Shown: positions 9,666 to 46,390 of the stretch, piece by piece
Layout of the letters: every line of letters starts with the position of its first letter
Position numbering within the stretch: the stretch's first letter is position 1
Source of the DNA: Geodermatophilus obscurus DSM 43160
GTDB taxonomy: Bacteria > Actinomycetota > Actinomycetes > Mycobacteriales > Geodermatophilaceae
DNA length: 64,000 bases
NCBI RefSeq assembly: GCF_000025345.1
Contig: NC_013757.1
Coordinates: 2,046,001-2,110,000, forward strand
Direction: 5' to 3'
Program-made: the position numbers and the translations under genes
The notes under the pieces: generated by a model
What the model saw: the letters and a program-made list of their open reading frames with translations, nothing else
What the model was told of the DNA's origin: nothing
Database searches by the model: none

Positions 9666-9767
9666 GCCTGCCCTCCGCATCCCCACAGGTCCTTGCCAGG
9701 GGCAGGCGGGATGCGGTGGGAGACGAGGGCGCGGTCCGCGCTGGGGTGAGGTCGTGGAGCAAGCTGG

Positions 9768-32040: not shown

Positions 32041-32126
32041 ACAGCACGGTCAAGTCGTCGGGCTAACCATGCACGAGGTTGTAAGTCCTCGCGGAGCACG
32101 GTGTCGTCGGCTCCTTCTCTTGACGC

Positions 32127-32174
32127 GGTCCCTAGTCGACACGGTCCCTCGTCGACACGGTCCCTCGTCGACAC
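32127..32174. repeat. Three tandem 16-bp repeats
   Basis: The unit GGTCCCTCGTCGACAC occurs at 32127-32142 (one A for C change), 32143-32158 and 32159-32174. Each contains a GTCGAC palindrome. They lie between the IS5 transposase start and the operator-promoter of the GtrA-like gene. Confidence 0.9.
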
Positions 32175-32211
32175 GGTTTAAGGCAGGCGGGCGTAGCACC
32201 GATCTGTAGTT

Positions 32212-32260
32212 GCTTGACACAGCAAGTAATTTCCCTGTACATTCACTTGCGCAATCAAGT
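32212..32260 (+). promoter_or_regulatory. Promoter with two MarR-type operators, upstream of the GtrA-like gene
   Basis: Operator 1 is GCTTG-N6-CAAGT (32212-32227) and operator 2 ACTTG-N6-CAAGT (32245-32260), starts exactly 33 bases apart. A sigma70-like promoter fits: TTGACA 32214-32219, 18-base spacer, TACATT 32238-32243. Operator 1 therefore covers the -35 and operator 2 lies just after the -10, an arrangement suited to repression. The same layout recurs at 34971 and 45688. Confidence 0.75.
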
Positions 32261-32281
32261 CACCGCTCGAGGAGTCCTTCG

Positions 32282-32743
32282 ATGAACGTCGTCAGCAGGA
32301 GCCGATCGCTCGTGGACCGGCTGCGCAGCGACGAGGGGCCGGCCCAGTTCGCCCGGTTCGTCGTCGTCGGTGGCCTCTCGAGCGCGGTGTACGCCCTCCT
32401 CTTCCTGGCCCTGGCCGGGTTCGGCGACCAGGCGGCCATGGTCGCGGGATCGGTCGCCTCCTCCGTGCTGGCCAACGAGTTGCACCGCCGGCTGACCTTC
32501 CACGCCGGCGAGCGGGTGACCTGGCAGGCCGCGCAGGCGGAGGGCGGGGCGCTCGTCGTCGCCGGGATGGTCCTGACCGGCCTCGCGCTGTACGGGTGGG
32601 ACGCCGTGGCTGGCCCGGGCAGTGCGCTCACCGACCTGGCGGTCATCGCCACCGTCACCGCGACGATCGGGCTCGTCCGGTTCGCCGCACTGCGCTGGCT
32701 GTTCCGGCCGCCCGCCCACGCCCCCGCCCTGGCCCTGGCCTGA
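32282..32743 (+). CDS. GtrA-like small membrane protein
   Basis: 153 aa with four hydrophobic helices: FARFVVVGGLSSAVYALLFL, then VAGSVASSVLANELHRRLTF, the GtrA-typical segment in which Asn and Arg follow the second helix, then two C-terminal helices. GtrA/DPMS-like proteins move lipid-linked sugars or form part of membrane glycosylation systems. Their role under stress regulators is unclear. The start ATG 32282 has GAGGAG upstream, 21 bases after operator 2. A DUF6069 gene follows after 78 bases. Confidence 0.75.
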   Translation: MNVVSRSRSLVDRLRSDEGPAQFARFVVVGGLSSAVYALLFLALAGFGDQAAMVAGSVASSVLANELHRRLTFHAGERVTWQAAQAEGGALVVAGMVLTGLALYGWDAVAGPGSALTDLAVIATVTATIGLVRFAALRWLFRPPAHAPALALA

Positions 32744-32821
32744 GTCCGCGGCCCTCCCGGCCCCATTGCCGGACGCGATGCCGCTGTCCGGATCCGCCCA
32801 TCCCTGTTCAAGGAGCACATC

Positions 32822-33280
32822 ATGACCAGCCGCCCCGCCGTCGCCACGCCCAGCGCCCCGGAGTCGACCGCACCCTCCGGAGCTCGTCACCCGCTCGCCG
32901 CCGCGATCGGGGTGGCCACCGTCTGCTCCGCAGTCGTCAACTCCGTGATCGCCGCCATCGCCCGCGGCCCGCTTGACGCCTCGCCGGACTTCCAGCCGCT
33001 CACCGCGCCGGTCTTCCTGATGTGGACGGTCGTCGGCACCGTCGTCGGGGCGCTGGGGTGGCGGCTCATCACGCGGCGCAGCGCCCGCCCCGCGCGCCTG
33101 CTGCGCTGGCTGGTCCCCACAGTGGTCGTGGTCTCCCTCGTCCCGGACCTCCTGCTGCTCGCCGCCGACTCGATGCCCGGCACCAGCGTTCCCGCCGTGC
33201 TCGCCCTCATGGCCATGCACGTCGCCACCGCAGCGGTCGCCGTCCCCGCCTACCAGCGGTTCCTGCCCGCCACCGACTGA
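32822..33280 (+). CDS. DUF6069-family membrane protein
   Basis: 152 aa with four membrane helices. Family landmarks are FQPLTAPVFLMWTVVGTVVG, then LRWLVPTVVVVSLVPDLLLL and the C-terminal LMAMHVATAAVAVPAYQRFL. A second member at 45893 shares the same landmarks and is also downstream of a dual MarR-type operator. The function is unknown. Probably cotranscribed with the GtrA-like gene. Confidence 0.8.
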   Translation: MTSRPAVATPSAPESTAPSGARHPLAAAIGVATVCSAVVNSVIAAIARGPLDASPDFQPLTAPVFLMWTVVGTVVGALGWRLITRRSARPARLLRWLVPTVVVVSLVPDLLLLAADSMPGTSVPAVLALMAMHVATAAVAVPAYQRFLPATD

Positions 33281-33419
33281 TCCGACGCGGGCGGGCCGGG
33301 TGGTCGGGCAGGCCCGCCCGCAGCCGCAGTCGACTCCGAAGCAGCCAGTGCTCGATCATGCTCGTGGGCGGTCGTCGACCGCACCGCCGGATCCGTGGCC
33401 GAGAGATCTGCGCCGTCGC

Positions 33420-33557
33420 GTGAGAAGAGGTGCCATCGAAGCGGTCGAGGAGCCGCGGTGGTTGACCGCGGAGGAGCAGCAGACCTGGCTGGAGCTGATC
33501 GGGGTACTCACCTGGCTGCCCGACGCCATCGACGCCCAGCCGCAGCGCGCACCCTCC
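33420..33557 (+). pseudogene. Fragment of a MarR regulator gene (N-terminal 45 codons)
   Basis: EAVEEPRWLTAEEQQTWLEL and IGVLTWLPDAIDAQPQR are nearly identical to residues ~1-45 of the intact MarR at 34420-34923, but on the opposite strand. The start codon is lost and the DNA-binding part is absent. It is a partial inverted duplication about 0.9 kb from the intact gene. Confidence 0.85.
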
Positions 33558-33783
33558 ACAACAGACCGGCGGGCAGGTCGACTGGCCGCACAACCCACCG
33601 GACACGACGTGACCTCGACCGGACACGGGAACCGGGTGAGCGACCGGTACCGACCGGGCGTCCGTGGACGGGCGTGCACGTGGAGCCACGAGCAGCGATC
33701 CTGGCGGGGGTCGGGGAGTGGCTGCCGCGGCCAGGAGGAGGGTCTGACGTGTGGGGTCGCCGATCGGTCACCGGGCCGGCCAG

Positions 33784-34323
33784 GTGAGCAGACTCAGGTT
33801 GCCGCGGCGCGCCGGCCGGGCAGGTGGACCGGACGACCTGCCCCGCGAGGACGTCGCGAGCCGCGTGTCCGCCTACGTGTACGGCAACGTCCTGGTGATG
33901 GCGGCGTTGATCGCACTGCACCCGGACGAGCTGCGGGGACCCACGGGCGTGCTCTACCTGCTGGGGGTGGGGGTCTCGACCTTCGTCGCGCACACGGTGG
34001 GTGAGGCGGTCGGGCTGCGGGTCCGCGAGGGCCGATCGCTGGACACGACTGCTGTCCGGCGGGAGATCCGGAATGCACTGCCCATCGTGACGACCGCCGG
34101 CGCACCCATCGCGATGCTGCTGCTGGCGTGGACCGACCTGGTGGACGCCGACGTGGTGCTCGTCCTGGCGCTTGGGCTGGTCGACGTCAGGCTGGCCCTG
34201 TTGGGCTCGGTGGTGGCGTGGGTGTCCGGGGAGCGCAGTTCGACCCGGGTGTTCCTGGCGGGCTTCGTCCTGGCGGTCGTCGCCGCTGCCACGGCCGTGC
34301 TCAAGTGGCAGCTGACGCACTGA
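33784..34323 (+). CDS. Four- to five-helix membrane protein (179 aa), unknown
   Basis: A basic N-terminus is followed by hydrophobic segments about YGNVLVMAALIALH, VLYLLGVGVSTFVAHTVGEA, IVTTAGAPIAMLLLAW, VVLVLALGLVDVRLALLGS and VFLAGFVLAVVAAATAVL. GTG 33784 was chosen as start; a longer form from 33751 is possible. No family is recognised. It lies between the MarR remnant and the convergent intact MarR gene. Confidence 0.6.
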   Translation: MSRLRLPRRAGRAGGPDDLPREDVASRVSAYVYGNVLVMAALIALHPDELRGPTGVLYLLGVGVSTFVAHTVGEAVGLRVREGRSLDTTAVRREIRNALPIVTTAGAPIAMLLLAWTDLVDADVVLVLALGLVDVRLALLGSVVAWVSGERSSTRVFLAGFVLAVVAAATAVLKWQLTH

Positions 34324-34419
34324 GCAGCGGTGACCGGGACTGCGGACCGGTGGCCACCGATGGCGGAATGACGGCGGCGCAGACGGTGGCGCCCTACCGG
34401 GACGTCGGCACTCGGGGAA

Positions 34420-34923
34420 TCAGGGGGTGTCCGGCGTCGCCAGGGTCGGGAGGCATCCGCCTGGGCTGACGACCTGCCGGATCCGGGTGGCGATCTCGTG
34501 CAGCTGGCGGACCTGGGTCCTGGTCAGCGGGTCGAGGACCAGGCGGCGGACCTCGGCGACGTGGCCGGGGGCGGTGGTGACGACCTTGTTCCAGCCGGCG
34601 TCGGTGAGCACGGCCAGGGTGGCGCGGCCGTCCTCGGGATCGGGCCGGCGGATCACCCAGCCACGCTTGTCCAGCCGGTCGACGGTCCGGGACAGCCGGG
34701 TCAGCGACCCGTTGGCCAGCGCGGCGACCTCGCTCATCCGTCGGGTGCGCTGCGGGGCCATGGACAGCATCGCCATCACCTGGTACTCGAAGTGGCTGAC
34801 GCCGGCGTCGCGCTGCAGCTGGGCGTCGATGGCGTCGGGCAGCCAGGTGAGCACCCCGATCAGCTCCAGCCAGGTCTGCTGCTCCTCCGCGGTCAACCAC
34901 CGCGGCTCCTCGACCGCTTCCAC
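34420..34923 (-). CDS. MarR-family winged-helix regulator, likely local quinone/aromatic-stress repressor
   Basis: 167 aa. The N-terminal dimerization helices (LTAEEQQTWLELIGVLTWLP) are followed by the winged helix about residues 50-120: VMAMLSMAPQRTRRMSEVAA, LTRLSRTVDRLDKRGWV (recognition helix), and the wing DPEDGRATLAVLTDAG. No Cys lies in the core sensor helix. The start GTG 34923 is set by AGGAGAGG just upstream. The divergent DoxX promoter carries two copies of the palindrome found at five promoters here, so this protein is the obvious candidate to bind them, including its own region. Confidence 0.88.
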   Translation of the reverse strand: MEAVEEPRWLTAEEQQTWLELIGVLTWLPDAIDAQLQRDAGVSHFEYQVMAMLSMAPQRTRRMSEVAALANGSLTRLSRTVDRLDKRGWVIRRPDPEDGRATLAVLTDAGWNKVVTTAPGHVAEVRRLVLDPLTRTQVRQLHEIATRIRQVVSPGGCLPTLATPDTP

Positions 34924-34970
34924 GACACCTCTCCTCGCTTGATCGAGCAATGCGACACACCGACACAGTT

Positions 34971-35019
34971 ACTTGACGGTGCAAGTACCGAGCGACTACT
35001 GTCGCTTGCGTCGTCAAGT
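34971..35019 (+). promoter_or_regulatory. Promoter with two MarR-type operators (MarR/DoxX intergenic region)
   Basis: Operators ACTTG-N6-CAAGT (34971-34986) and GCTTG-N6-CAAGT (35004-35019) start 33 bases apart. Toward DoxX: -35 TTGACG 34973-34978, 18-base spacer, -10 TACTGT 34997-35002. The marR gene diverges from the left side, so both directions could be controlled. Confidence 0.75.
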
Positions 35020-35041
35020 AAAGCACGTGAGGAGTCAGAAC

Positions 35042-35416
35042 GTGAACGTCGTCTTGTGGATCGTGGCCGGGCTGCTGGCCGTCGCCTTCCTCGCCGCCGG
35101 GCTGATGAAGCTCACCCAGCCGAAGAAGAAGCTCGCCGACTCCGGCATGGGCTGGACCGAGGACTTCAGCGACGGCGCGGTCAAGGGCATCGGCGCCCTG
35201 GAGGTGCTCGGCGCCGCGGGCCTGATCCTGCCCGCCGCGCTGGACATCGTCCCGGTGCTGGTGCCGATCGCCGCCACCGGCCTGGCCCTGCTCATGCTGG
35301 GCGCCGCGGTGACCCACGCCCGCCGCAAGGAGTCGACGAACATCGTCGTCAACATCGTGCTGCTCGCCCTGGCCGCGTTCGTGGCCTGGGGCCGGTTCGG
35401 CCCGTACGCCTTCTGA
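35042..35416 (+). CDS. DoxX-family membrane protein
   Basis: 124 aa from GTG 35042 (GAGGAG upstream). Four membrane helices with the DoxX pattern: WIVAGLLAVAFLAAGLMKLT, then IGALEVLGAAGLILPAAL, VPIAATGLALLMLGAAVTHA and a C-terminal helix ending in WGRFGPYAF. DoxX-like proteins join membrane oxidoreductase complexes in oxidative or thiol stress. It is the first gene of a probable operon with the quinone reductase, ring-cleavage dioxygenase remnant, DUF2218 and VOC genes. Confidence 0.85.
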   Translation: MNVVLWIVAGLLAVAFLAAGLMKLTQPKKKLADSGMGWTEDFSDGAVKGIGALEVLGAAGLILPAALDIVPVLVPIAATGLALLMLGAAVTHARRKESTNIVVNIVLLALAAFVAWGRFGPYAF

Positions 35417-35528
35417 CCCCATCGGCGGCCGACCTCACCGGGTGACCGCCGAGCGCCACCTCCACTCGTTCCGGCCTCCCGTGGCCGGAGTGCACCCCAT
35501 CGCAACCACCTGACCTGGAGTCCCCGTC

Positions 35529-36481
35529 ATGCGCGCACTGCACGTCCCCACCGCCGGTGAGCAGCCCCAGCTCGGCGAGCTGCCCACCCCCGAGCCCACC
35601 GAGGGCACGGTCCTCTGATCCGGGTCAAGGCCGCTGGCCTGAACCCCATCGACAACGCCGTCGCCACCGGTTTCCTCGCCCAGATGGGCCTGCCGCACGA
35701 GTACCCGCTCGTGATCGGCCGCGACGCCGCCGGCGTCGTGGAGGCCGTCGGCGCCGGTGTCGACCACGTCGCCGTCGGCGACGAGGTGCTCGGCCACGTG
35801 CTGCTGGCCCCGCCGATCTCGGCCGGCACCCTCGCCGAGCACGCCGTCCTGCCGGCCGCCACGGTCACGCCCAAGCCCGCCGGCCTGGACTTCACCACCG
35901 CCGCCGCCCTCCCGCTGGCCGGCGCAGCCGCCGTGCAGTCCATCGACGCGATCGACCCCCAGCCCGGGCAGACCGTGCTGGTCAACGGCGCCTCCGGCGG
36001 CGTCGGCTCCTTCGCCGTGCAGCTGCTGGCCGCCCGGGGTGTCACCGTCGTGGCCACCGGCACGCCCGCCGACGCCGACCGGCTCACCGCCCTCGGCGCC
36101 GCCCGGGTCATCGACCACACCGCCGGCCCGGTCGCCGAGCAGGTCCGCGCCGCCTACCCCGACGGCGTCGACGCCCTGGTCAGCCTCTACGGCATGGACC
36201 CCGCCGGCACCCCCATCTCCGCCGTGCGCACTGGTGGCAAGGTCGCCGGCGTCGCGGCGGTGCCCGACGAGGCCACCCTCGCCGCCGCCGGGCTCACCGG
36301 CACCTCCGTCATGGCCACCCCCACCCGGGAGGTCCTCGCCCCGCTCGCCCAACAGGCCGCGGCCGGGGACCTGAAGGTCACCGTCGCCGACGTCCTGCCC
36401 CTCGAGCAGGCCACCGAGGGCCTGGGCCGGCTCGCCACCGGCGGCGCCGGCGGCAAGCTCGTCGTCACCGTCGAGGGCTGA
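35529..36481 (+). CDS. Zinc-less MDR quinone oxidoreductase, frameshifted near its start
   Basis: About 317 aa. MRALHVPTAGEQPQLGELPT begins at ATG 35529, then a frameshift at about 35616 creates an early TGA. The protein resumes as IRVKAAGLNPIDNAVATGFL in another frame and continues intact: YPLVIGRDAAGVVEAVGAGV, NGASGGVGSFAVQLLAARGV (NAD(P)-binding) and GGKLVVTVEG at the end. Quinone oxidoreductases of this kind reduce quinones or enones with NADPH. If the frameshift is real the protein could start only at ATG 35684. It lies in the DoxX operon. Confidence 0.8.
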
Positions 36482-36599
36482 CACCACCGTCGCCGGCCGG
36501 GGTCGACGCAAGAGCGCCGACTCCGCCCGGCGGCGGGCACATCCCCTCCGGCCCGTCATCGGCCGCCCACCCGCGCGACCGGCCTGGCACGGCGCATCG

Positions 36600-37090
36600 C
36601 CGCGACGCTGAGCGACTCCACTCCGCTGCACCAGCACGTCGACCGCGGTCTGGACCACGCCGCCTTCATCCCGATGGTGGCCATGTAACCGGCCGTCGAG
36701 GTGCCTGCCGTCCAGCTGAGCACGCCGAGCCTGGATCCCGAGGCCCTGTTGAGGCTGGGGGAGCGGCTCCACACCCTGCGTGAGGGCATCCTGGTCATCG
36801 GCTCGGGGACCATGACCCGCAGCTTCACCGTCTTCCGCCGGCCTGAGCCGGCGGGCCACACCGCCGCCTTCGACGAGTGGGCCACCGACGCCATCGCGCG
36901 CAGCGACGTCGACGCCCTGCTCGACTACCGCGCCAAGGGACCGAGCGCGGACATCGCCCACCCGACCGCCGACCACTTCGTGCCCCTGCTGCTCACCCTC
37001 GGTGCAGGCACCACGCCCGGCCAGTCGGTGACGACCGCCTTCGACGGCATGTGGATGGGCAACTCGATCCGCTCCTTCCAGGCGGCCTGA
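36600..37090 (+). pseudogene. C-terminal remnant of a class III ring-cleavage (LigB-type) dioxygenase
   Basis: HQHVDRGLDHAAFIPMVAM, stop, then VPAVQLSTPSLDPEALLRLG through SIRSFQAA matches the second half of the intact dioxygenase at 39836-40738. The first ~140 residues with the metal-binding His motifs are missing. A TAA stands where the paralogue has a Tyr codon ([12 protein letters not shown]). The remnant from ATG 36701 (129 aa) could still be translated but cannot be an active dioxygenase. It sits inside the DoxX operon. Confidence 0.8.
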
Positions 37091-37130
37091 CCGGACCCCC
37101 CGACCGCCGAACCCGATCAGGAGAAAACCG

Positions 37131-37430
37131 ATGACCATCCTCTCCTCGCGCGCCGACGTGCCCACCGACGCCCCGGCCCGCTACGCCAAGCAGCTGGTCT
37201 CGCACCTGGGCCGCAAGGCCCCGTTCACCGAGGACGCCGACGGCGCCTGGACGATCACCGTCGGGGAGGCCCGCGGCCGGATCCTCGTCGGCGACGGCGT
37301 GCTGACGTTGCACGTCGAGGCGTCCGACGTCGAGACCCTCGACCGCCTCGAGCACGCTCTGGGCAGCCACCTCGAGCGCTTCGGTGCCCGTGCCGGCCTG
37401 ACGGTCGCCTGGCGACGCGACGCCGACTGA
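37131..37430 (+). CDS. DUF2218-domain protein
   Basis: 99 aa, essentially one DUF2218 domain: [20 protein letters not shown], then [20 protein letters not shown] and [12 protein letters not shown]. Family members are small alpha/beta proteins found with siderophore or redox genes, with no settled role. AGGAGAAAA precedes the ATG. It is the fourth gene of the operon that begins at DoxX. Confidence 0.85.
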
Positions 37431-37524
37431 CCGGCACTCCCCGGCCACGGGGTCCACAGAGCCAGGCGCGCCCACGGCCGCGCTCGGAAGCAACACAACC
37501 ACCCACCGAGAAGAGGACACCGCC

Positions 37525-37905
37525 TTGAACGTCAACGCCATCACCTGGCACTCCATCACCGTCGAGCCCGAGCAGCTCGACGCCCAGAAGAAGTTCCTCA
37601 CCGAGACCCTCGGTCTGACCCTGGCGATGGAGATGTACGGCGTCTTCGTGTACGCGCTCCCGGACGGGGGGATGCTGGAGCTCTACACGCCGCAGACCGC
37701 CCCGGACTTCGGCTACAACGGCTCCATCGCCTTCGGCTTCCGGGTCGACGACGTCGAGGCGGCCAGCGCCGAGATCGCCGCGGCGGGCGGCGAGCTGCTC
37801 GGGGAGATCAACCGGGTGCCCGACCTGGACTACGCCTACCGCCACTTCCGCGGCGTGGACGGCCGCGTCTACGGCCTCAACGAGAGCAAGCCGCAGCCCC
37901 GCTGA
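37525..37905 (+). CDS. VOC-family (glyoxalase/extradiol dioxygenase fold) protein
   Basis: 126 aa from TTG 37525, with AGAGGA upstream. One VOC domain: [20 protein letters not shown], then [12 protein letters not shown] and the second half [19 protein letters not shown]. Metal ligands are plausible at His9 and the Glu of MLELY. Single-domain VOC proteins act as glyoxalases, dioxygenases or binding proteins. Next to quinone reductases and a ring-cleavage dioxygenase, a role with aromatic or electrophile substrates is likely but inferred. It converges on the GH15 gene. Confidence 0.85.
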
Positions 37906-37984
37906 CGCACAGCCCTGCCGGTCCGCCGCGACCGCGGTGGACCGGCGGGCCGACGGGCCTGCTCCAGGCCGGCGCCATCCCAGG

Positions 37985-39630
37985 GCCCGATCGAGGTTCA
38001 CGGCGGCGCTGATGAGCGCCAGGTGGGTGAAGGCCTGGGGGAAGTTGCCCTGCTGATCTCCGGCGACGCCGATCTGCTCGGCGTAGAGGCTGAGGGCATC
38101 CAGGGTGGCGAGCCACTTGGGATCGGTCGGCGCGACGAATTTCGCCAGCGGCATCATCAGGACGGCGGCGTCCAGGACGTCGTCATCCTCGTGCTGCACG
38201 AACGCCTGACGTCGTGCCGACCAGCCCCGCTTCATGATCCGCCGGTAGATGTCGTCGCGGGTGCGCTCCCACCTGGCCCGGTCGGCGGGCAGGCCGCGAC
38301 GGTTGGCCATGCGGATGGCGCGCTCGACGGCCACCCAGCACATCAGCCGCGAGTACAGGAACTTCTTGCGCCCGCCGCGGGTCTCCCAGATGCCCTCGTC
38401 GGGCTGGTCCCAGTGGTCGCAGACCCAGTCGACGAGACCGCAGAGGCCCTCCCACGCATCACTGGAGATGGGCTCCGCCCACTCGTCGTACAGGTACACG
38501 GAGTCGATCAGCTCGCCGTAGATGTCCAGTTGGAGCTGCTCGGCCGCGCCGTTGCCGATCCGGACGGGGGACGCGCCCTCGTACCCCTCCAGGTGCGGGA
38601 GCTCCTCCTCGGCCAGGTCGGTGCGGCCGTCTGTGCCGTACATGATCTGCAGGGGGCCAGAGGGGTGGTCGTCTGCCGGTGGGATGTGCTGCGCGAGGAA
38701 GTTCATGAACGCGGCTGCCTCGCTGGTGAAGCCCAGCCGCAGGAGCGCGTAGACGCAGAAGGCAGCGTCGCGAATCCACACGAAGCGGTAGTCCCAGTTC
38801 CGCTCGCCACCGGGTTGTTCGGGCAGGCTGGTCGTGGGCGCGGCGACGATGGCGCCCGTCGGTGCATAGGTCAGCAGCTTCAGCGTCAGCGCCGACCGGT
38901 GGACCATCTCGCGCCAGCGGCCGCGGTAGCGCGACGCCGACAGCCAGCGCCGCCAGTACGTGACCGTGGCGTCGAAGAGCTCCTCCGCCTCGGTGCCGGA
39001 GCGACCGCGCGGCGCGGTATCCCCGTCGACGCGGTCGAGGGCGAACACCGCCGAGTCGCCCTCGACCAGGGTGAACTCCGCTTCGACATCGCGCCCGTCG
39101 CAGCGGAGGGGGGAACCGTGGCGGTCAGCGACAGCGACAGGTCCGTCGAGCCGAAGAGGACGCCACCGTCGCGCTCGTCGACGGTGTGCGTCCGGCGGCC
39201 GTAGTCGAAGCGGGGGGACACCCGCACGCGGAACGTCATGGTCCCGCGGACGCAGAGCACCCGCCGGACCAACCGGTGGTCAGCCGTCTCCGTGGCCGGG
39301 CCGACGGGCATGAAGTCCTGGGCCTCGCCCACGGCGTCGCCGGTGTAGAAGCGGGTCAGCTGGACGTTGGTGTGCGGGACGTAGAACTGCCGGGGTGCGC
39401 GCCGGCGAGGCGGTGGCCAGCTCGAAGGAGCCTCCGCGGTCGGCGTCGAGGATCGCCCCGAACACGCTCGGCGAGTCGAATGACGGGTAGCAGTACCAGT
39501 CGATGGTGCCGTTGGTGCCGACCAGCGCCACGGTGTGCAGATCGCCGATCAGTCCGTGCTCGGCGACGGGGAGGTACCGCGGCTGGGGGCCGGGCTCCGC
39601 TCGATCGTCCTCAGCCGGGTCGCTGGTCAC
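37985..39630 (-). CDS. GH15 glucoamylase/trehalase-like protein with two frameshifts
   Basis: About 550-590 aa. N-terminus from GTG 39630 (GGAGG upstream): [20 protein letters not shown], then [19 protein letters not shown]. The catalytic (alpha/alpha)6 barrel has [18 protein letters not shown], the general acid/base region [20 protein letters not shown] with IWETRGG, and [20 protein letters not shown] at the end. Frameshifts lie near 39400 and in the G run at about 39110. No stop appears at the expected end; the frame stays open under the VOC gene, so the 3' end is uncertain. The family hydrolyses alpha-glucosides or trehalose in the cytoplasm. Confidence 0.75.
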
Positions 39631-39770
39631 GAGTGCCCTCCGTGTCGGTCTGGCCGGGGTGGTACGCGAGCTGACGTGAGGGCGAGAACTATCGCAGGGT
39701 CGTGCTCGACCGGCCCGGTGGCGGTCGTCGGCGACGCGTGGAGTGGAGGCGCTCACATGTTCGGCGAAAT

Positions 39771-39820
39771 ACTTGCTGCAGCAAGTGAGTTGCGGCAGAG
39801 TGTCAGTTGCCTCGACAACC
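39771..39820 (+). promoter_or_regulatory. Two MarR-type operators upstream of the ring-cleavage dioxygenase
   Basis: ACTTG-N6-CAAGT (39771-39786) and the variant AGTTG-N6-CAACC (39805-39820) start 34 bases apart. The -35-like TTGCTG (39773) overlaps the first as at the sister promoters, but the -10 is poor. The second ends 15 bases before the ATG. The divergent GH15 gene starts at 39630. Confidence 0.65.
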
Positions 39821-39835
39821 AACTGGGAGTCCACC

Positions 39836-40738
39836 ATGACCACGCTCGGTCCCGCTACGACCGCCGCTGCGGACGCCCGCATCCCGGCCGACCACCTCTT
39901 TGCCCAGCACCTGCGCCGCGTCGCCGCGCTGGACCCACACCGGGCGTGGACGCCGGAGGACGGGGCGCTGCCGAGCCTCTACCTGTCCCACGGTGGTGGT
40001 CCGATGCCGTTCTGGCGGCCCGAGTGGCTGAACCCGTTGCACGACTGGGCCCGCGCGCTGCCCAAGCCGAAGGCGATCCTGGTGGTCTCCGCGCACTGGG
40101 AGTCCGCGCCGCTGTCGATCAGCGCTCCCCGGCCCACCGAGCTGGTCTACGACTTCGGCGGCTTCGACCCGCTCTACTACACGTTCCGCTACGACACCCC
40201 CGACGCGGGCGAGCTCGCCCGCGACGTGGTCCGCCTCATGCCCGACACCGAGCACGTGCACCAGCACGCCAGCCGCGGCCTGGACCACGGCTCCTGGGTG
40301 CCGCTGAAGATCATGTACCCGGAGGCCGACGTCCCGGTGCTGCAGCTCTCCCTGCCCACCGAGGACCCCGACCGGCTGCTGGCCATCGGTGAGCGGCTGC
40401 GTCCGCTGCGCGAGGAGGGCGTGCTGGTGGTCGGCTCGGGGCACATGACCCACGGCCTGCCGTTCATCACCCGGGGGATGCTCGAGGGGACCGAGGTGCC
40501 GGCCTGGTCGACCGACTTCGACGGCTGGGCCGCCGACGCGCTGGCCCGTGGCGACGTCGCCGAGCTGTCCCGGTATCGCAGCGCCGCGCCGGGCCTGCCC
40601 TACGCCCACCCGACCGTGGAGCACTTCACCCCGCTGTTCGTCGCCCTCGGCGCGGCCACCGACCCCACCGCCCCGGTGATCACCACCCTGGACGGCTACA
40701 GCTTCGGCCTCTCCCGGCGCTCTTTCCAGGCCGCCTGA
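39836..40738 (+). CDS. Class III extradiol ring-cleavage dioxygenase (DODA/LigB type)
   Basis: 300 aa. Metal ligands are visible: His52 in [13 protein letters not shown], His87 in LVVSAHWES, later GSGHMTHG and [11 protein letters not shown], plus [16 protein letters not shown] in the centre. LigB-type DODA proteins open catechol-type rings with Fe(II) or bind Zn; bacterial YgiD acts on DOPA. Such genes are often controlled by MarR repressors that sense quinones or catechols. The start ATG 39836 lies directly after the operators. The QorB-like gene follows after 41 bases. A dead paralogue is at 36600. Confidence 0.88.
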
Positions 40739-40779
40739 GCCTGCAACCCGGACCCACCTCACCAAGGAGAACCACCCGC

Positions 40780-41637
40780 ATGTCCATCGTCGTCACCGGC
40801 GCCACCGGCCACCTCGGCCGACTGGTCGTCGAAGCCCTCCTCGCCCGCGGCGTGCCCGCCGACCAGATTGTCGCCACCGGCCGCCGCGTCGAGGCGCTCG
40901 CCGACCTGCAGGACCGCGGCGTCACCGTCCGCCGCGCCGACTACACCGACCCCGACTCCCTGCGCGCCGCGTTCGCCGGCGCCGAGAAGGTGCTGCTCGT
41001 CTCGAGCAGCGAGGTCGGCCAGCGGCTGCCGCAGCACCGCAACGTGATTTCGGCGGCGAAGGACGCGGGTGTGCGCCTGATCGCATACACCAGCTTCCCC
41101 CACGCCGACACCTCGACCCTTCCTCTGGCAGCCGAGCACCTCGCCACCGAGCAGGTCCTGGTCGAGTCCGGGGTGCCGCACGTCGTCCTGCGCAACGGTT
41201 GGTACATCGAGAACTACACGGGCCAGCTGGCCACCTACCTCGAGCACGGCATCGTCGGCTCCGCCGGCACCGGCAAGGTCAGCGCGGCTCCCCGCGCCGA
41301 CTTCGCGGAGGCGGCCGCCGCCGTCCTGACCCAGGACGGTCACGACGGCGCGGTGTACGAGCTCGGCGGCGAGGCGTTCACCATGCCCGAGTTGGCCGCG
41401 ACCGTCTCCGCGGTCACGGGCCGGCACGTCGCCTACACCGATGTGCCGGTCGAGCAGTACGCCCAGATCCTCGTCGGTGCCGGGCTACCCGAGCCGGCCG
41501 CGGCACTGTTCGCGGACTTCGACCGGGCCGTGGCCGACGGGGAACACCACGTCGGCGACGACCTGGCCACGCTCATCGGCCGGGCGCCGACCCCGCTCGC
41601 CGACGCCGTCGCCGCGGCAGCCGCTCGCCAGCAGTGA
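40780..41637 (+). CDS. QorB-like NAD(P)H:quinone oxidoreductase (atypical SDR)
   Basis: 285 aa. The Rossmann motif VVTGATGHLGRLVVEALLAR is at residues 4-23, DYTDPDSL follows, then SSSEVGQRLPQHRNVISAAK and the QorB-typical RNGWYIENYTGQL. QorB reduces quinones with NAD(P)H without flavin. Coupled to the ring-cleavage dioxygenase, it suits detoxification of quinones by reduction and ring opening. AAGGAGAA precedes the ATG and a terminator follows the stop. Confidence 0.87.
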   Translation: MSIVVTGATGHLGRLVVEALLARGVPADQIVATGRRVEALADLQDRGVTVRRADYTDPDSLRAAFAGAEKVLLVSSSEVGQRLPQHRNVISAAKDAGVRLIAYTSFPHADTSTLPLAAEHLATEQVLVESGVPHVVLRNGWYIENYTGQLATYLEHGIVGSAGTGKVSAAPRADFAEAAAAVLTQDGHDGAVYELGGEAFTMPELAATVSAVTGRHVAYTDVPVEQYAQILVGAGLPEPAAALFADFDRAVADGEHHVGDDLATLIGRAPTPLADAVAAAAARQQ

Positions 41638-41643
41638 CCACGG

Positions 41644-41672
41644 GCCCTCACCTCCTTCGGGGAGGTGAGGGC
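41644..41672 (+). terminator. Terminator after the dioxygenase-quinone reductase operon
   Basis: Stem GCCCTCACCTCC (41644-41655) pairs with 41661-41672 around TTCGG. It lies 6 bases after the stop codon. Confidence 0.85.
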
Positions 41673-41729
41673 TCGTCCGTCCGGCGCACGTCCGCGCCTG
41701 CCATCGCTGGGTCGACCGGAGGAGGAGCC

Positions 41730-42893
41730 GTGGCAGGGGGACGGCTCTGGTCGGCGGCGCACCCGCGGCTCGCGGATGCGTGTCTGGCGGCGCTGCTGGT
41801 CCTCCTCGTCCTCCCGACCCTCGTCATCCGGAATCCCGAGTTCCCGGGAAGCCCGGACGGCTGGTCCCTGGCCGTGTTCGCCCTCGCCGCGGCAGCTCTG
41901 GTCTTCCGGCGGGAGCAGCCGCTGCGGGTCTGGGCGTTCGCGACGGTGGCGGGGGTCGCCGGCGTGCTGCAGAGCGACGGGAGCATCGTCCTGGCTGCCA
42001 CCACCTGCGTCGCGCTCTACACGGTCGGCAGCCGACTACCCCTGCGCAGCGTGGTCCTAGCGAGCGTCGTCTCGGGTGTCGCCTACACCCTCGCCTCGGT
42101 CGTGGCCGAGGGCGACTGGCTCGACGACCGCGGGGTCCCTGGCCTGCAGACCTTCGCGTGGTCGGCCGCCGCCTCGGCGGTCGGGGTCGCAGTGCGCAGT
42201 CACCGGGCCACGCTGGCGGCGGCGGAGGCCCGCGCCCTGCAGGCCGAGCTGACGCGGGAGGACGAGGCCGAGCGCCGGGTCAGCGACGAGCGGCTGCGCA
42301 TCGCCCGCGAGCTCCACGACGTCGTGGCCCACCACATCTCGATCGTCAACGTGCAGGCTGGGGTCGCGCGCCATCTCCTGGACGCCGACCCCGACCAGGC
42401 GCGAGCGGCGCTCGACCTGGTGCGTGACGCCAGCAAGACCGTGCTGTCGGAGATGTCCACGGTCGTGGGTCTGCTGCGCACCGCGGGGGAGGAGGCGCCG
42501 ACCGATCCGACGCCGGGCATGGCCCGGGTCGGCGAGCTGGCCGACTCCATCCGCCAGGCCGGGCTGGACCTGACCTGGACCGTCAGCGGCGAGCTCGCGG
42601 GGCTCCCCGCGATCCACGACCTGACCGCGTACCGGGTCGTCCAGGAGACGCTGACCAACGCCCTGAGGTACGGCACCGGCGCGGCCACGATGGTCGTGGA
42701 CAGCCGACCGGAGGGTGTGAGCATCGAGGTGCGCAACGAGGTTGGCAGGAACGGACGGCACCGGTCCGGGGGCGGTCACGGTCTGATCGGCATGCGGGAA
42801 CGCGTCGACGCCGTCCGCGGGCGGCTGGCGGCCGGACCGGAGCCGGACGGCGCCTATCGGGTGTCGGTCCTCATCCCGCGGGACCCGGCATGA
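41730..42893 (+). CDS. NarL-type sensor histidine kinase
   Basis: 387 aa from GTG 41730, with GGAGGAG upstream. Five or so membrane helices lie in residues 15-155, followed by a coiled coil, then HisKA_3 with RIARELHDVVAHHIS (His196). The ATP-binding domain has VVQETLTNALRYG and a G box GHGLIGMRERV. It is the closer to family standard of the two kinases in the window. The ATGA overlap with the response regulator shows coupling. The ABC-2 exporter genes follow, a usual target of such pairs. Confidence 0.92.
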   Translation: MAGGRLWSAAHPRLADACLAALLVLLVLPTLVIRNPEFPGSPDGWSLAVFALAAAALVFRREQPLRVWAFATVAGVAGVLQSDGSIVLAATTCVALYTVGSRLPLRSVVLASVVSGVAYTLASVVAEGDWLDDRGVPGLQTFAWSAAASAVGVAVRSHRATLAAAEARALQAELTREDEAERRVSDERLRIARELHDVVAHHISIVNVQAGVARHLLDADPDQARAALDLVRDASKTVLSEMSTVVGLLRTAGEEAPTDPTPGMARVGELADSIRQAGLDLTWTVSGELAGLPAIHDLTAYRVVQETLTNALRYGTGAATMVVDSRPEGVSIEVRNEVGRNGRHRSGGGHGLIGMRERVDAVRGRLAAGPEPDGAYRVSVLIPRDPA

Positions 42894-43588
42894 CCGTCCG
42901 CGTGCTGCTCGCCGACGACCAGGTCCTCATCCGATCGGGGTTCGCGGCGCTCGTCAACAGTGCCGACGACCTCAAGGTGGTCGGTGAGGCAGGTGACGGC
43001 GCCGAGGCCGTCCGCCAGGCCGGCGCGCTGCGACCGGACGTCGTCCTGATGGACATCCGCATGCCCGGTGTGGACGGACTGACGGCGGCTCGGCAGATCG
43101 CCGCGTCACCCGACCTCTCCGAGGTCCGCATCATCGTGCTGACCACCTTCGAGGCCGACGAGTACGTCGTCGAGGCCCTGCGGTCGGGGGCGAGCGGGTT
43201 CCTGGGCAAGAGCGTCGAGCCGGACGAGTTGCTCGACGCCATCCGGGTGGTCGCGCGCGGTGACGCGCTGCTGTCCCCGCGGGCCACCCGGAGCCTGATC
43301 GCCCGCTTCCTGGCCCAGCCCGGCCGGTCCGGGCCGGACCCCGACGGGCCTGCTCCCGTCGACGCGGCGCTCGACGTCCTCACGGAGCGGGAACGCGAGA
43401 TGGTCGCGCTGGTGGCGCACGGGCTGAGCAACGAGGACATCGCGGCGCGCCTGCACCTCTCGCCGCTCACGGTCAAGACGCACGTCAACCGGGCCATGAG
43501 CAAGCTCCGCGCGCGGGACCGGGCCCAGCTGGTGGTCCTCGCCTACCAGACCGGGCTCGTCCGGGCGGGCGACACGTATCCGCGCTGA
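42890..43588 (+). CDS. NarL/FixJ-type response regulator
   Basis: 232 aa. Receiver domain with LLADDQ at 6-11, phospho-acceptor Asp55 (VVLMDIRMPG), Thr in VLTTFEAD and Lys in FLGKSVEP. The LuxR HTH follows: LTEREREMVALVAHGLSNED, then LHLSPLTVKTHVNRAMSKL. It overlaps the kinase gene by 4 bp. The downstream ABC exporter has its own MarR-type operator, so it may receive two inputs. Confidence 0.93.
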   Translation: MTVRVLLADDQVLIRSGFAALVNSADDLKVVGEAGDGAEAVRQAGALRPDVVLMDIRMPGVDGLTAARQIAASPDLSEVRIIVLTTFEADEYVVEALRSGASGFLGKSVEPDELLDAIRVVARGDALLSPRATRSLIARFLAQPGRSGPDPDGPAPVDAALDVLTEREREMVALVAHGLSNEDIAARLHLSPLTVKTHVNRAMSKLRARDRAQLVVLAYQTGLVRAGDTYPR

Positions 43589-43686
43589 CGCGTGTGCCGG
43601 CCTCGCCTCTACTGCGCTGGCAGTAGGCGGAGGCCGCCGCAAGAGCCTGCGTACGGATGACGACGGGGACCGCTTGCCCGATGGAT

Positions 43687-43702
43687 AGTTGCCTCGTCAA
43701 CC
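43687..43702 (+). promoter_or_regulatory. Single MarR-type operator upstream of the ABC exporter
   Basis: AGTTG-CCTCGT-CAACC is almost identical to the second dioxygenase operator (AGTTG-CCTCGA-CAACC at 39805). It lies 19 bases before the ATPase start. No second copy was found 33 bases upstream. Confidence 0.55.
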
Positions 43703-43721
43703 AATAGCCGGGGAGCGACTG

Positions 43722-44663
43722 ATGCTGGAACTGCAGAACCTGACCAAGCGCTACGGGGACGTCGTCGCCGTCGACGACCTCACCTTCGACGTCCGTCCCG
43801 GTGTCGTCACCGGGTTCCTCGGGCCGAACGGGGCGGGCAAGTCCACCACCATGCGGATGATCCTCGGCCTGGACCGGCCGACCTCCGGATCGGTCACCGT
43901 CAACGGGCGGGACTACCGGACGTCGACGGCGCCGCTGCACGAGATCGGCGCCCTGCTCGACGGCAAGGCGGTGGACAAGGGGCGCTCGGCCCGCAACCAC
44001 CTGCTGGCCCTGGGGGCCACGGTGGGTGTCGGAGCCCGCCGCGTGGACGAGCTGCTGGACGCGGTCGGTCTGGCCGAGGTCGCGCGCAAGCCGGCGGGTT
44101 CCTTCTCCCTGGGCATGGGGCAGCGGCTGGGCATCGCCTCGGCGCTGCTGGCCGACCCGTCCATCGTGATGCTCGACGAGCCGGTGAACGGGCTGGACCC
44201 CGACGGCATCCTGTGGGTGCGCAGCTTCCTGCGGTCCTTGGCCGAGGAGGGGCGAACGGTGTTCCTGTCCTCGCACCTGATGAGCGAGATGGAGCTGACC
44301 GCCGACCACCTGATCGTCGTCGGCCGGGGCCGGCTGATCCGGGACGTGTCGATGGCGGAGTTCATCGCCTCGGCGTGGAGCGACAAGGTCAGGGTCGTCT
44401 CGCCGGACGCCACGGCACTGGCCGGCCTGCTGGCCGCGCCCGGGGTCACCGTGACGTCGTCCTCGCCGACGGAGCTGGAGATCGAGGGCGTGCCCGCCTC
44501 GGAGATCGGTGACCTCGCCGCGCGCCACGGTCTGCCGCTCCACGAGCTCGTCCCGCTGCACCCCTCCCTAGAGGAGGCCTTCATGGAACTCACGAAGGAG
44601 TCCGTGCAGTACCACGGCCGCACCGACGGCGCGCTCCCCACCACCGCGGCGGCAGCCCGGTGA
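43722..44663 (+). CDS. ABC-2 exporter ATP-binding protein
   Basis: 313 aa, intact. Walker A GPNGAGKSTTMRMILGLD, signature FSLGMGQRLGIASALL, Walker B SIVMLDEPVNGLDPDG, H-loop VFLSSHLMSEME, and a C-terminal extension. The start ATG 43722 has GGGGAG upstream; the frame is open to 43689 but crosses the operator. Its stop overlaps the permease GTG. It is a paralogue of the frameshifted ATPase at 18443. Exporters of this group move antibiotics, peptides or lipids; the substrate is unknown. Confidence 0.92.
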   Translation: MLELQNLTKRYGDVVAVDDLTFDVRPGVVTGFLGPNGAGKSTTMRMILGLDRPTSGSVTVNGRDYRTSTAPLHEIGALLDGKAVDKGRSARNHLLALGATVGVGARRVDELLDAVGLAEVARKPAGSFSLGMGQRLGIASALLADPSIVMLDEPVNGLDPDGILWVRSFLRSLAEEGRTVFLSSHLMSEMELTADHLIVVGRGRLIRDVSMAEFIASAWSDKVRVVSPDATALAGLLAAPGVTVTSSSPTELEIEGVPASEIGDLAARHGLPLHELVPLHPSLEEAFMELTKESVQYHGRTDGALPTTAAAAR

Positions 44664-45592
44664 CCGCCACGCTGCCCGACGGCACCCCTCCCACCACGAC
44701 CCGCGAGAAGGCGGACCCCACGATGACCACCTCCACCTCACCGGACACGACCACCGCTCACACCGCGTCCTCGGCCCACCGGCACCGCGCGACCACGGCG
44801 CCCGCGTACCGGATCACCCTGGCGCGCGTCATCCGCGCCGAGTGGATCAAGCTGCGCACCCTGCGCTCGACCTGGGCCATGCTGACCGCGGTGCTGCTGA
44901 CCATCGTCGGGATCGGCGCCATCGCCGCCGCGAGCGCGACCGGCGCCGTCGAGGGCCCGCGCGACGGCGGCGGACCGGGCGGCGGCGATCCGCTCTCCAC
45001 CGTGCTCAGCGGCTCGATGCTCGCCGTCGTCCTCGTCGGCGTCCTCGGTGTCCTGTTCGGCGCCCGGGAGTACTCCTCCGGCCTCATCCGCAGCTATCTC
45101 GCCGCGGTACCCGCGCGCCTGCCCGTGCTCGGGGCCAAGGTGGTCGCCTTTCTGCTGGCCGTCGTCCCGGTCGTCCTCGCGGGCGTCTTCGTGGCCTTCG
45201 CGGTGGGCATGGCCGTGCTCGACGCGGGCGGCGTCGCCACCGTCTCGTGGAGCGATCCGGGGACCGCGCGGGTCGTGCTGGGCACGGCCGGCTACGTCGT
45301 GGGCATGGGCCTGATCGGCCTGGCTCTCGGCGTGCTCCTGCGGAGCACCGCAGGAGCCATCAGTGCCCTGCTCGCCGGAATCCTGGTCTTGCCGACGCTC
45401 GCCGGCGCACTCCTGCCCGAGGCCTGGGACGGGTTGCTGAAGTATCTGCCGTCCAACGCCGCGTCGGCGTTCACGTCCACCGTTCCGACCGAGTCGCTGC
45501 TCGGCGCCGGCACGGGGGTACTGGTCTTCGCCGGCTGGATCGTCGTGGCCGTCGCCGGGGCCGCCGTCGCCTTGTCGCGCCGCGACGCCTGA
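44660..45592 (+). CDS. ABC-2 exporter permease
   Basis: 310 aa. A long polar Thr/Ser-rich N-terminus precedes RVIRAEWIKLRTLRSTWAML and six membrane helices, including SGSMLAVVLVGVLGVLFGAR and LGVLLRSTAGAISALLAGIL, ending VALSRRDA. GTG 44660 overlaps the ATPase stop; the internal ATG 44723 is an alternative start that would remove the polar leader. With the ATPase it forms an exporter. The paralogous permease at 20373 is frameshifted. Confidence 0.9.
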   Translation: MTATLPDGTPPTTTREKADPTMTTSTSPDTTTAHTASSAHRHRATTAPAYRITLARVIRAEWIKLRTLRSTWAMLTAVLLTIVGIGAIAAASATGAVEGPRDGGGPGGGDPLSTVLSGSMLAVVLVGVLGVLFGAREYSSGLIRSYLAAVPARLPVLGAKVVAFLLAVVPVVLAGVFVAFAVGMAVLDAGGVATVSWSDPGTARVVLGTAGYVVGMGLIGLALGVLLRSTAGAISALLAGILVLPTLAGALLPEAWDGLLKYLPSNAASAFTSTVPTESLLGAGTGVLVFAGWIVVAVAGAAVALSRRDA

Positions 45593-45600
45593 CCCGTTCC

Positions 45601-45640
45601 CGGTCGGTGTCGCTCCGTCATCACCGGGCGACACCGACCG
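45601..45640 (+). terminator. Hairpin after the ABC exporter genes
   Basis: CGGTCGGTGTCGC (45601-45613) pairs with 45628-45640 across a 14-base loop, starting 8 bases after the permease stop. Confidence 0.65.
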
Positions 45641-45687
45641 GTCGTCATCGAGCCCACCATCAGGAATTTCCGGAGATCTCTCCGGGC

Positions 45688-45736
45688 GCTTGACGCGGCA
45701 AGCTTCGGTCGGCTACCTTCACTTGCACGGGCAAGT
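45688..45736 (+). promoter_or_regulatory. Promoter with two MarR-type operators upstream of a DUF6069 gene
   Basis: Operators GCTTG-N6-CAAGC (45688-45703) and ACTTG-N6-CAAGT (45721-45736) start 33 bases apart. -35 TTGACG 45690-45695, 18-base spacer, -10 TACCTT 45714-45719. The geometry is identical to 32212 and 34971. The coding start is 156 bases further on, so the leader is long. Confidence 0.72.
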
Positions 45737-45892
45737 AATCGCCTGCGTCACCAAGGCGATGGCTGGGGTCGCTGGCGCACTCGGACGCCTGACGACTGAC
45801 CGGGTCCCGACGCAGTTCCCGCCCGTCCCGTGATCACCGGGGCGACACCGGCCGCCCGCCACCTGATCCACCACCCGACCTGGAGAACTGCC

Positions 45893-46327
45893 ATGACCAC
45901 CACCTCGGCCCGGGACACCCGCGCGGTGTCCTGGAAGTCCACCGCCGTCGCCGCCGCCATCGGCGCCGTCGGGGGGCTCGTCATCAACAGCCTGATAGCC
46001 CTGCTCGCGAAGGCTCTCTTCGACATCCCGGACGAGTTCCAGCCGCTCACCCTGCCGGTGTACGGGTTCCTGACCGTCGTCGGCGCGATCGTCGGCGCCA
46101 TCGCCTGGCACCTCGTCGTCTCGCGCAGCCGCAACGCCTCGCGGGTGCTGCGTGTGCTCGTTCCCACGGTGCTCGTGCTCTCGCTGATCCCGGACGTCAT
46201 GCTGCTCGTCAACGAGTCGCAGCCCGGGACCACGACTGCCGGCGTGGTTGCGCTGATGCTCATGCACGTCGGTGTCGCCGCGGCGGCCGTGCCGGCCTTC
46301 CGCCGGTTCATCCCGCCCCAGTCCTGA
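45893..46327 (+). CDS. DUF6069-family membrane protein
   Basis: 144 aa with four helices: STAVAAAIGAVGGLVINSLI, FQPLTLPVYGFLTVVGAIVG, LRVLVPTVLVLSLIPDVMLL and LMLMHVGVAAAAVPAFRRFI. It is a clear paralogue of the gene at 32822, and both follow dual MarR-type operators. The start is ATG 45893; an in-frame upstream start would lack an RBS. Function unknown. Confidence 0.8.
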   Translation: MTTTSARDTRAVSWKSTAVAAAIGAVGGLVINSLIALLAKALFDIPDEFQPLTLPVYGFLTVVGAIVGAIAWHLVVSRSRNASRVLRVLVPTVLVLSLIPDVMLLVNESQPGTTTAGVVALMLMHVGVAAAAVPAFRRFIPPQS

Positions 46328-46390
46328 CGCACTCCAGCCCAGCGCTCGTCCGCTCAGCCTGGGCTGACCGGCGCCCCGGTCACGCACCGC

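Follow-up and report, generated by a model that had tools for sequence, protein, structure and literature searches.

The question raised by this locus is whether a palindrome that recurs ahead of several genes of the soil actinobacterium Geodermatophilus obscurus DSM 43160 marks the targets of a single repressor. The window, that is, the whole stretch of DNA analysed, comprises 64,000 nucleotides (2046001-2110000) from a genome that consists of one contig of 5,322,497 bases, and the palindromes lie in it together with a gene for a MarR-type regulator (marR, 34420-34923). The reading that we favour, with a probability of about 0.77, is that this one repressor, a relative of SCO3205 of Streptomyces coelicolor, runs a local regulon through a two-sided clamp on its promoters and receives an aromatic electrophile as signal. 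We infer binding, repression, start sites, effector and gene roles from the DNA and protein sequences.

All nine palindromes reported in the first-pass annotation were found in the window sequence (Table 1), and the measured start-to-start distances agreed with the paired spacing that it had given, 33 bases at three loci (32212/32245, 34971/35004 and 45688/45721) and 34 at a fourth (39771/39805). The frame TTG-N6-CAA occurs 11 times in the window, at these nine sites and at positions 30946 and 34939. The latter belongs to an imperfect palindrome at 34937 that had been overlooked, and it was counted as a tenth site because it lies 34 bp from the DoxX pair (34937/34971) and 13 bases ahead of the chosen MarR start codon; its position suggests that it possibly serves the autoregulation of marR. 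The frame is present in all ten sites. At the GtrA, DoxX and second DUF6069 promoters the first palindrome contains the hexamer TTGACA/G, an 18-base spacer leads to TACATT, TACTGT or TACCTT, and the second palindrome begins one base further on.

Pattern searches of the genome were run with reversed-pattern controls. The motif RCTTG-N6-CAAGY was found at 10 sites in the 5.32 Mb, seven of them inside the cluster (reversed control, 1). A 33-bp TTG-N6-CAA pair with at most one mismatch occurred three times, always in the cluster (control, 0), and TTG-N6-CAA pairs 29-37 bp apart with C or G preceding the first TTG occurred five times, again all in the cluster, at four promoters (control, 0). The genome-wide check of motif and spacing that the first pass had proposed therefore returned pairs in this cluster only, and the regulon, if pairs define it, is confined to about 13.5 kb. 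The excess of single sites in the window was weak: 11 matches were obtained at up to two mismatches, with a shuffle mean of 5.85 and at least 11 matches in 4 of 100 shuffles.

The start of marR was placed at the GTG at 34923 because the ribosome-binding site GGAGAGG lies upstream of it. The Pfam matches of the deduced protein were MarR_2, MarR and HTH_27; HxlR was not among them. Its closest solved relative is SCO3205 (phmmer, 5.7e-36), with 69 of 150 aligned residues identical and a sequence relationship across most of the protein (SCO3205 itself was not on the tree). The SCO3205 backbone contacts R60, R74, S76, R81, R90 and R98 are conserved, whereas the base-contact residues Arg72, Ser73 and His77 are Leu, Thr and Arg in the window protein, in which SCO3205 positions 73 and 77 correspond to residues 75 and 79 (SCO3205 numbering is used below). 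This indicates a relative with altered specificity and not the orthologue of SCO3205. The closest relative of marR among the named records belongs to Geodermatophilus amargosae. The first pass had regarded this as the only MarR gene. It is the only one that was seen there in the window, but the genome holds two further homologues at E<=1e-20, at 930796 and 1326382, both of the Ser73/His77 class by their helices (QSH and RSH).

In order to see how operators are arranged beside related MarR genes, upstream regions of homologues were surveyed. A first survey of 97 regions gave 29 with at least two TTG-N6-CAA sites, neighbours being 29-36 bp apart and mostly 32-35; the starts of the same genes, used as control, contained no pair and one single site. 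The main survey, drawn from a subset of the homologue matches, reduced 206 matches to 198 distinct regions once duplicates and upstream stretches shorter than 120 bases had been dropped; alignments of fewer than 90 residues were excluded from all counts. Because TT and AA served to define the half-sites, their bases 1 and 2 are invariant by definition. Of the 198 regions, 98 contained two TT-N8-AA frames at a distance of 28-37 bp, with spacing 33 in 45 of them and 34 in 32, and no such pair occurred when the genes' own first 274 bases were examined as control. With Leu or Met at position 72, pairs were found in 87 of 117 regions, as against 11 of 80 with other residues. Pairs of 31-35 bp were present in 91 regions, and three consecutive sites in 13; by its position, the middle one of three could serve two divergent promoters. 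When a -10 element was sought in these 91 regions at offsets 14-21 from the hexamer of the first site, the best spacer was 17 in 50 and 18 in 25, and the first half-site read TTGAC in 38. This layout suggests that the promoter sets the distance within a pair, one operator lying on the -35 and the other behind the -10.

The first pass had instead taken the 33-bp spacing as evidence of cooperative dimers. Such a device, with two dimers on one face of the DNA as a tetramer-like unit, is a tentative alternative that we consider rather unlikely. A spacing of about three helical turns, the frequency of 31-35 bp pairs and the three-site rows are in its favour, and in Arg77 sequences the paired sites show a weak tendency to be mirror images (12 versus 6, with 3 ties; sign-flip p 0.016, uncorrected for relatedness). 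However, there is no mirror trend in Ser73/His77 or Asn77 sequences, the spacings over the homologues range from 29 to 36 bp (about 0.7 turn), and the -35/-10 geometry would suffice to set the distance. Cooperative binding deduced from helical phase was therefore rejected as a conclusion.

The letters of the operators also vary with the recognition helix of the adjacent MarR. Each site was counted once per region, and the Lys77 and Gln77 classes are small (5 regions each). His at position 77 goes with G at base 3 of the half-site in 220 of 224 cases, Arg with G in 85 of 100, Lys with G in 20 of 22 and Asn with C in 47 of 60; with Gln, C was counted 12 times and G 8 times in 22. At base 4, Ser73 plus His77 goes with A (133/134), Pro plus His with T (62/84) and Pro plus Lys with C (20/22), and the Arg77 classes are divided between C and A (17 and 12 of 30 for Thr plus Arg; 29 and 28 of 60 for Ser plus Arg). 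C at base 4 was found once in 134 cases in the Ser73/His77 class, to which both genomic paralogues belong; each of the ten window sites holds at least one TTGC half. In the crystal of the SCO3205-DNA complex, Ser73 and His77 contact these bases (PMC3737563). Residue 77 could then set base 3 (G for His, Arg or Lys, C for Asn, either for Gln), and residues 73 and 77 together base 4 (A for Ser plus His, T for Pro plus His, C for Pro plus Lys, A or C with Arg77). We give even odds to the wider proposal that operators can be read off from residues 73 and 77 in this actinobacterial group of mostly Leu72 MarR proteins, that the two-operator clamp is its standard arrangement, and that the Geodermatophilus regulator has spread over a local cluster of at least four promoters, those of the DUF6069 membrane proteins among them.

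Sites were then scored with seven class models within this MarR group, trained after the nine rows that came from the window genome or from G. amargosae had all been removed. The Thr/Pro73-Arg77 model, which represents the class of the window MarR, came first at seven of the ten window sites: 32212 (20.8), 34937 (weak at 8.5, yet best in this model), 34971 (22.0; Pro73/Gln77, 21.9), 35004 (20.8), 39771 (21.8), 45688 (17.3) and 45721 (20.5; Pro73/Gln77, 20.0). It tied with Pro73/Lys77 at 43687 (15.2 each), and it scored 23.0 at 32245, where Ser73-Arg77 was first with 24.4. In G. amargosae a distance of 2-10 kb separates marR from the promoters of the homologous DUF6069, LigB and second DUF6069 genes, and all six sites of these promoters rank Thr/Pro73-Arg77 first, as does the marR-adjacent site 828. 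The RCTTG sites outside the cluster in the window genome are at genome positions 109698, 789623 and 1229695. Site 109698 (16 bp, ACTTGAAGTCTCAAGC) precedes a VOC/glyoxalase gene and scored 23.9 in the Ser73/His77 model; it was rejected as a member of the regulon as it is best read as an operator of that type, although it reaches 19.6 in the class of the window MarR, and a different MarR of the group may be the one that acts on it. Site 1229695 scored 17.0 with Ser73/Arg77 and 15.0 with Thr/Pro73-Arg77 and has no clear gene.

Sites 39805 and 43687 raise the question of whether two circuits are superimposed here, with the 34420 protein acting on the GtrA, DoxX and second DUF6069 promoters only, and with the LigB and ABC sites being remnants of a lost circuit of a Pro73/His77-type MarR or belonging to another regulator. 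Two more MarR homologues of G. amargosae, on contigs C65 and C69 (helices LPH and PSH), adjoin copies of LigB. Site 39805 scored 13.3 with Pro73/His77 and 13.0 with Pro73/Lys77, above the 9.6 of Thr/Pro73-Arg77, and the C65 copy of LigB (88% identical) adjoins the LPH MarR with a site, 5841 (GGTTGTCGCTACAACA), that scores 22.1 in the class of this Pro73/His77 neighbour and -4.3 in that of the window MarR. No LPH-type MarR is present among the three matches of the window genome at E<=1e-20, which speaks for the alternative. Nevertheless, we judge it unlikely: the other LigB site, 39771, is strong in the Thr/Pro73-Arg77 model, the LigB nearest to that of the window (94%, G. amargosae C69) has two sites that both rank this model first, and at the C65 copy, too, the first site resembles those of the Arg77 class.

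Several observations weigh against the single-repressor reading. The sites are not equivalent, as they had been treated in the first pass: 39805 fits Pro73/His77 better, 34937 is weak and 43687 is unpaired. The 18-base spacer with a TAC-type -10 that had been described there stands for the GtrA, DoxX and second DUF6069 promoters, but no clear -10 was found at the dioxygenase (34-bp pair) and ABC promoters. Of the SCO3205 contacts, R32, Y44 and Q100 are replaced by A, E and T. For the GtrA, LigB, ABC and DUF6069 promoters, binding is predicted solely from the resemblance of their sites. In G. amargosae the marR-adjacent site 796 scored 19.3 with Pro73/His77 against 18.3, and the C65 site 5807, beside the Pro73/His77 MarR, scored 26.5 with Ser73/Arg77 against 3.0 in the class of its neighbour. 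The looser motif RSTTG-N6-CAASY gave 21 sites genome-wide against 11 in the control, so that single sites are not diagnostic. Site 789623 is letter-identical to 35004, yet it lies within a long coding ORF (an ATPase-like part, judged by eye) and was set aside as a regulon member on that account. Among eight relatives RCTTG-N6-CAAGY clearly exceeded its control only in G. amargosae (15 versus 1), and in two further relatives it fell below it (5 versus 15 and 6 versus 20); the exact 33-bp pair was present in 10 of 61 genomes of relatives and its reversed control in 4, which makes this pair by itself a weaker marker in other genomes. The other 100 of the 198 upstream regions lack 28-37 bp pairs, among them 45 of the 46 regions of the QSH group, which includes paralogue 930796, a protein whose specificity can only be guessed. 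Finally, a tree of 98 rows, built with the recognition helix excluded, contains nine changes each of residue 77 and of base 3, but one independent residue-77 contrast on well-supported branches (six in the best tree); since the homologues are related and one contrast is supported, a sign test cannot reach significance, and formal proof of a residue-base code through independent contrasts was not reached. Despite these points, the confinement of the pairs to the cluster, the paired sites at the homologous genes of G. amargosae and the covariation of helix residues with adjacent operators uphold the local regulon with its divergent MarR that the first pass had proposed, and the 34420 protein is its likely regulator.

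As regards the signal, the residues that form the salicylate pocket of SCO3205, Trp16 and His119, are W18 and H121 in the window MarR, and the pair is retained in 194 of the 198 homologues. Given this conservation, the most economical signal would be an aromatic ligand, for instance a quinone or phenol, that releases the repressor. Other MarR proteins, such as OhrR and MosR, sense by thiol oxidation, and the target enzymes look redox-type, so that a redox signal in place of a bound aromatic ligand was considered. It is distinctly improbable: the 167-aa protein has a single Cys, in its C-terminal tail (GGCLPT), and none at the N-terminus, and the Trp/His ligand pair is nearly invariant.

Known systems share parts of this arrangement. 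In E. coli, MarR also places two dimers at one promoter, marO, but sequence, spacing and regulon differ from those of the window. YodB, CatR and QsrR, of the DUF24/HxlR type, are characterized by an HxlR domain with a conserved N-terminal Cys, and the window MarR has neither. SCO3205 (PDB 3ZPL; relatives AbsC and SCO7727) shares with the window MarR most backbone contacts, the Trp/His pair and the TTG-N6-CAA frame, which is present in operator O3204 (core TTGAACTCTCAA), and its divergent gene probably encodes a class III extradiol dioxygenase (PMC3737563), the protein type to which LigB belongs. However, in the SCO3205 system two divergent genes have a single operator each within 119 nt (PMC3737563), whereas in the window two operators frame one promoter, and this at several promoters. 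The published SCO3205 operator consensus, TTnAAnnnTCAA, is not followed here, TTnAA being present in none of the ten window sites. Two operators and the DNA complex of SCO3205 have been published, with binding also ahead of the YceI-like gene sco5533, but the authors were unable to assign it a physiological role (PMC3737563). MhqR of Staphylococcus aureus and Bacillus subtilis is likewise a MarR repressor with ring-cleavage dioxygenases and quinone reductases as targets (PMC6798810, PMC12893000). Its ligand pocket is located as in AbsC (PMC12893000), and one of its His residues aligns to H121 of the window protein. Nevertheless, MhqR has as its operator a 9-9 bp repeat, TATCTCGAA-aTCGAaATA, which lies over the start site (PMC6798810) and from which the window sites differ, and the window MarR matches S. 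aureus MhqR (9QDR) at 5.1e-8 against 5.7e-36 for SCO3205, a distant relationship. The first-pass comparison with MhqR/YodB-type sensors therefore holds for the regulatory logic, but the operator frame and the nearest solved relative are those of SCO3205, and membership in the MhqR type does not follow.

AcsR of Corynebacterium glutamicum, likewise a MarR, keeps an extradiol dioxygenase gene repressed until catechol releases it (PMC13118786). Its footprint holds ACTTGACACGGAAAGT, which resembles an Arg77-class site, although the recognition element given by the authors is one repeat, AATTTA-N14-TAAATT (PMC13118786); the published AcsR site was sought in 397 genomes of the order and none was found. 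AesR has two side-by-side repeats of another sequence (PMC13413800). In the open-licence literature searched, no paper was found on DUF6069, none joining MarR family, DoxX and catechol, and none combining MarR, recognition helix, specificity, covariation and operator. The first-pass statement that the gene set matches no described regulon was not contradicted by the titles and first abstract lines of the papers listed there; a described precedent, with no role assigned, is provided by SCO3205 and the extradiol dioxygenase gene beside it.

The features of the cluster are collected in Table 1.

Table 1. Predicted operators and genes of the cluster (window positions)
Feature	Position	Strand	Remarks
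GtrA promoter, operator 1 (predicted)	32212..32227	+	GCTTGACACAGCAAGT; contains -35 TTGACA (32214-32219)
GtrA promoter, operator 2 (predicted)	32245..32260	+	ACTTGCGCAATCAAGT; starts 1 nt past -10 TACATT (32238-32243)
GtrA-like membrane protein, 153 aa	32282..32743	+	PF04138, 4.8e-06
First DUF6069 protein, 152 aa	32822..33280	+	after GtrA; four hydrophobic segments
marR remnant, 128 bp	33422..33549	+	95% identical to 34809-34936 (marR 5' end), opposite strand; remnant of a second copy
marR	34420..34923	-	167 aa from GTG 34923; SCO3205-like; recognition helix ANGSLTRLSRTVDRL
Tenth site, imperfect	34937..34952	+	GCTTGATCGAGCAATG; close upstream of marR start codon
DoxX promoter, operator 1 (predicted)	34971..34986	+	ACTTGACGGTGCAAGT; -35 TTGACG (34973-34978)
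DoxX promoter, operator 2 (predicted)	35004..35019	+	GCTTGCGTCGTCAAGT; 1 nt past -10 TACTGT (34997-35002)
DoxX_2 protein, 124 aa	35042..35416	+	6e-29
Dioxygenase (LigB) promoter, operator 1 (predicted)	39771..39786	+	ACTTGCTGCAGCAAGT
Dioxygenase (LigB) promoter, operator 2 (predicted)	39805..39820	+	AGTTGCCTCGACAACC
LigB class III extradiol dioxygenase, 300 aa	39836..40738	+	best NCBIfam 4,5-DOPA-extradiol-dioxygenase, NF007914 2.3e-40, under cut-off
NmrA/QorB-like NAD(P)H-binding protein, 285 aa	40780..41637	+	
Histidine kinase and LuxR-type response regulator	41730..43588	+	between QorB and ABC
ABC gene, lone operator ahead (predicted)	43687..43702	+	AGTTGCCTCGTCAACC
ABC ATPase and ABC-2-type permease	43722..45592	+	permease match under Pfam cut-off
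Second DUF6069 promoter, operator 1 (predicted)	45688..45703	+	GCTTGACGCGGCAAGC; -35 TTGACG (45690-45695)
Second DUF6069 promoter, operator 2 (predicted)	45721..45736	+	ACTTGCACGGGCAAGT; 1 nt past -10 TACCTT (45714-45719)
Second DUF6069 protein, 144 aa	45893..46327	+	

A further explanation is that the palindromes are promoter-associated repeats, spread for example by transposition or by recent copying of one promoter, with no dedicated regulator. A DDE transposase gene (31042-32040) lies directly upstream of the GtrA module, a fragment of marR is duplicated, and 43687 looks like a copy of 39805 (17 of 20 bases of the stretch identical), all of which could be taken in this sense. We nevertheless consider it very improbable. 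The palindromes of the GtrA, DoxX and second DUF6069 promoters agree at 23-25 of 32 bases, but their flanks at only 21-31 of 78; as the flanks are unrelated while the palindromes agree, these three strong promoters are not recent copies, and selection has likely preserved their palindromes. Moreover, layout and letters track the adjacent MarR over many genomes. The cluster itself seems to grow by duplication and rearrangement, to judge from the transposase, the marR remnant and two comparisons with G. amargosae: near-identical marR-doxX stretches stand at three contig ends in that genome, where they could be copies or else a single repeat that entered the assembly three times, and at C69 QorB and ABC are direct neighbours, whereas in the window the histidine kinase and response regulator lie between them. 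The module is patchy, with a relative above 65% identity in four of 26 genomes of the genus, that of the window included.

Other features of the sequence were also recorded. A tandem repeat at 32122-32177 (16-bp unit GACACGGTCCCTCGTC, 3.5 copies) lies 34 bp upstream of the first operator. The product of the ORF at 33787-34323 is a membrane protein that has about six hydrophobic segments but matches no Pfam family; its G. amargosae homologues (78-81% identity) follow DUF6069 genes. On the minus strand between DoxX and LigB (37255-39882), a GH15/trehalase-like gene is apparently split into GH15 (37255-39048) and TREH_N (39280-39882) parts, possibly by a frameshift. Elsewhere in the window, an inverted 160-bp repeat (87%) occupies 9507-9666 and 12837-12998, and a 46-bp perfectly self-complementary stretch lies at 9601-9646. 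A search of 31500-46500 against Rfam gave no family at gathering scores, and defence-system models gave no match to GtrA, the two DUF6069 proteins or the 33787 ORF.

Under the single-repressor reading, every palindrome of the TTG(A/C) type would be occupied by a MarR dimer. Where two dimers flank a promoter, as they would at GtrA-DUF6069, DoxX and the second DUF6069 gene and, less perfectly, at LigB-QorB, one would cover the -35 and the other would lie just past the -10 over the start site, so that RNA polymerase would be excluded from both sides of the clamped promoters; the ABC gene would have one such site. Between marR and doxX the middle of the three sites would work both ways, and the tenth site would let marR regulate itself. 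The repressor would be freed when an aromatic electrophile binds in the conserved Trp/His pocket, with a quinone, catechol or another phenol as the most likely candidates, upon which the ring-cleaving dioxygenase, the quinone-type reductase, DoxX, the exporter and the small membrane proteins would be made.

The genes beside other MarR proteins of the group were also inspected. Nine divergent neighbours and the neighbour of site 109698 were checked with Pfam, the picking of ORFs being unreliable in high-G+C frames. The nine comprise a GTP cyclohydrolase II, an F420-dependent oxidoreductase, a short-chain dehydrogenase, two RidA-like proteins, a flavodoxin-fold reductase and VOC, YceI and NmrA proteins. 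With a ring-cleaving dioxygenase, reductases of the NmrA and short-chain types, enzymes of flavin and F420, VOC and YceI among them, the sampled neighbours would point to defence against aromatic electrophiles as a shared theme, and DUF6069 would gain a regulatory context. MarR proteins are abundant in actinobacteria, with 42 in S. coelicolor (PMC3737563). If this reading is true, the operators and regulons of many uncharacterised MarR proteins of the group would be predictable from protein sequence, and if two residues predict the operator and the paired layout marks the promoter, their target genes would be readable from genomes.

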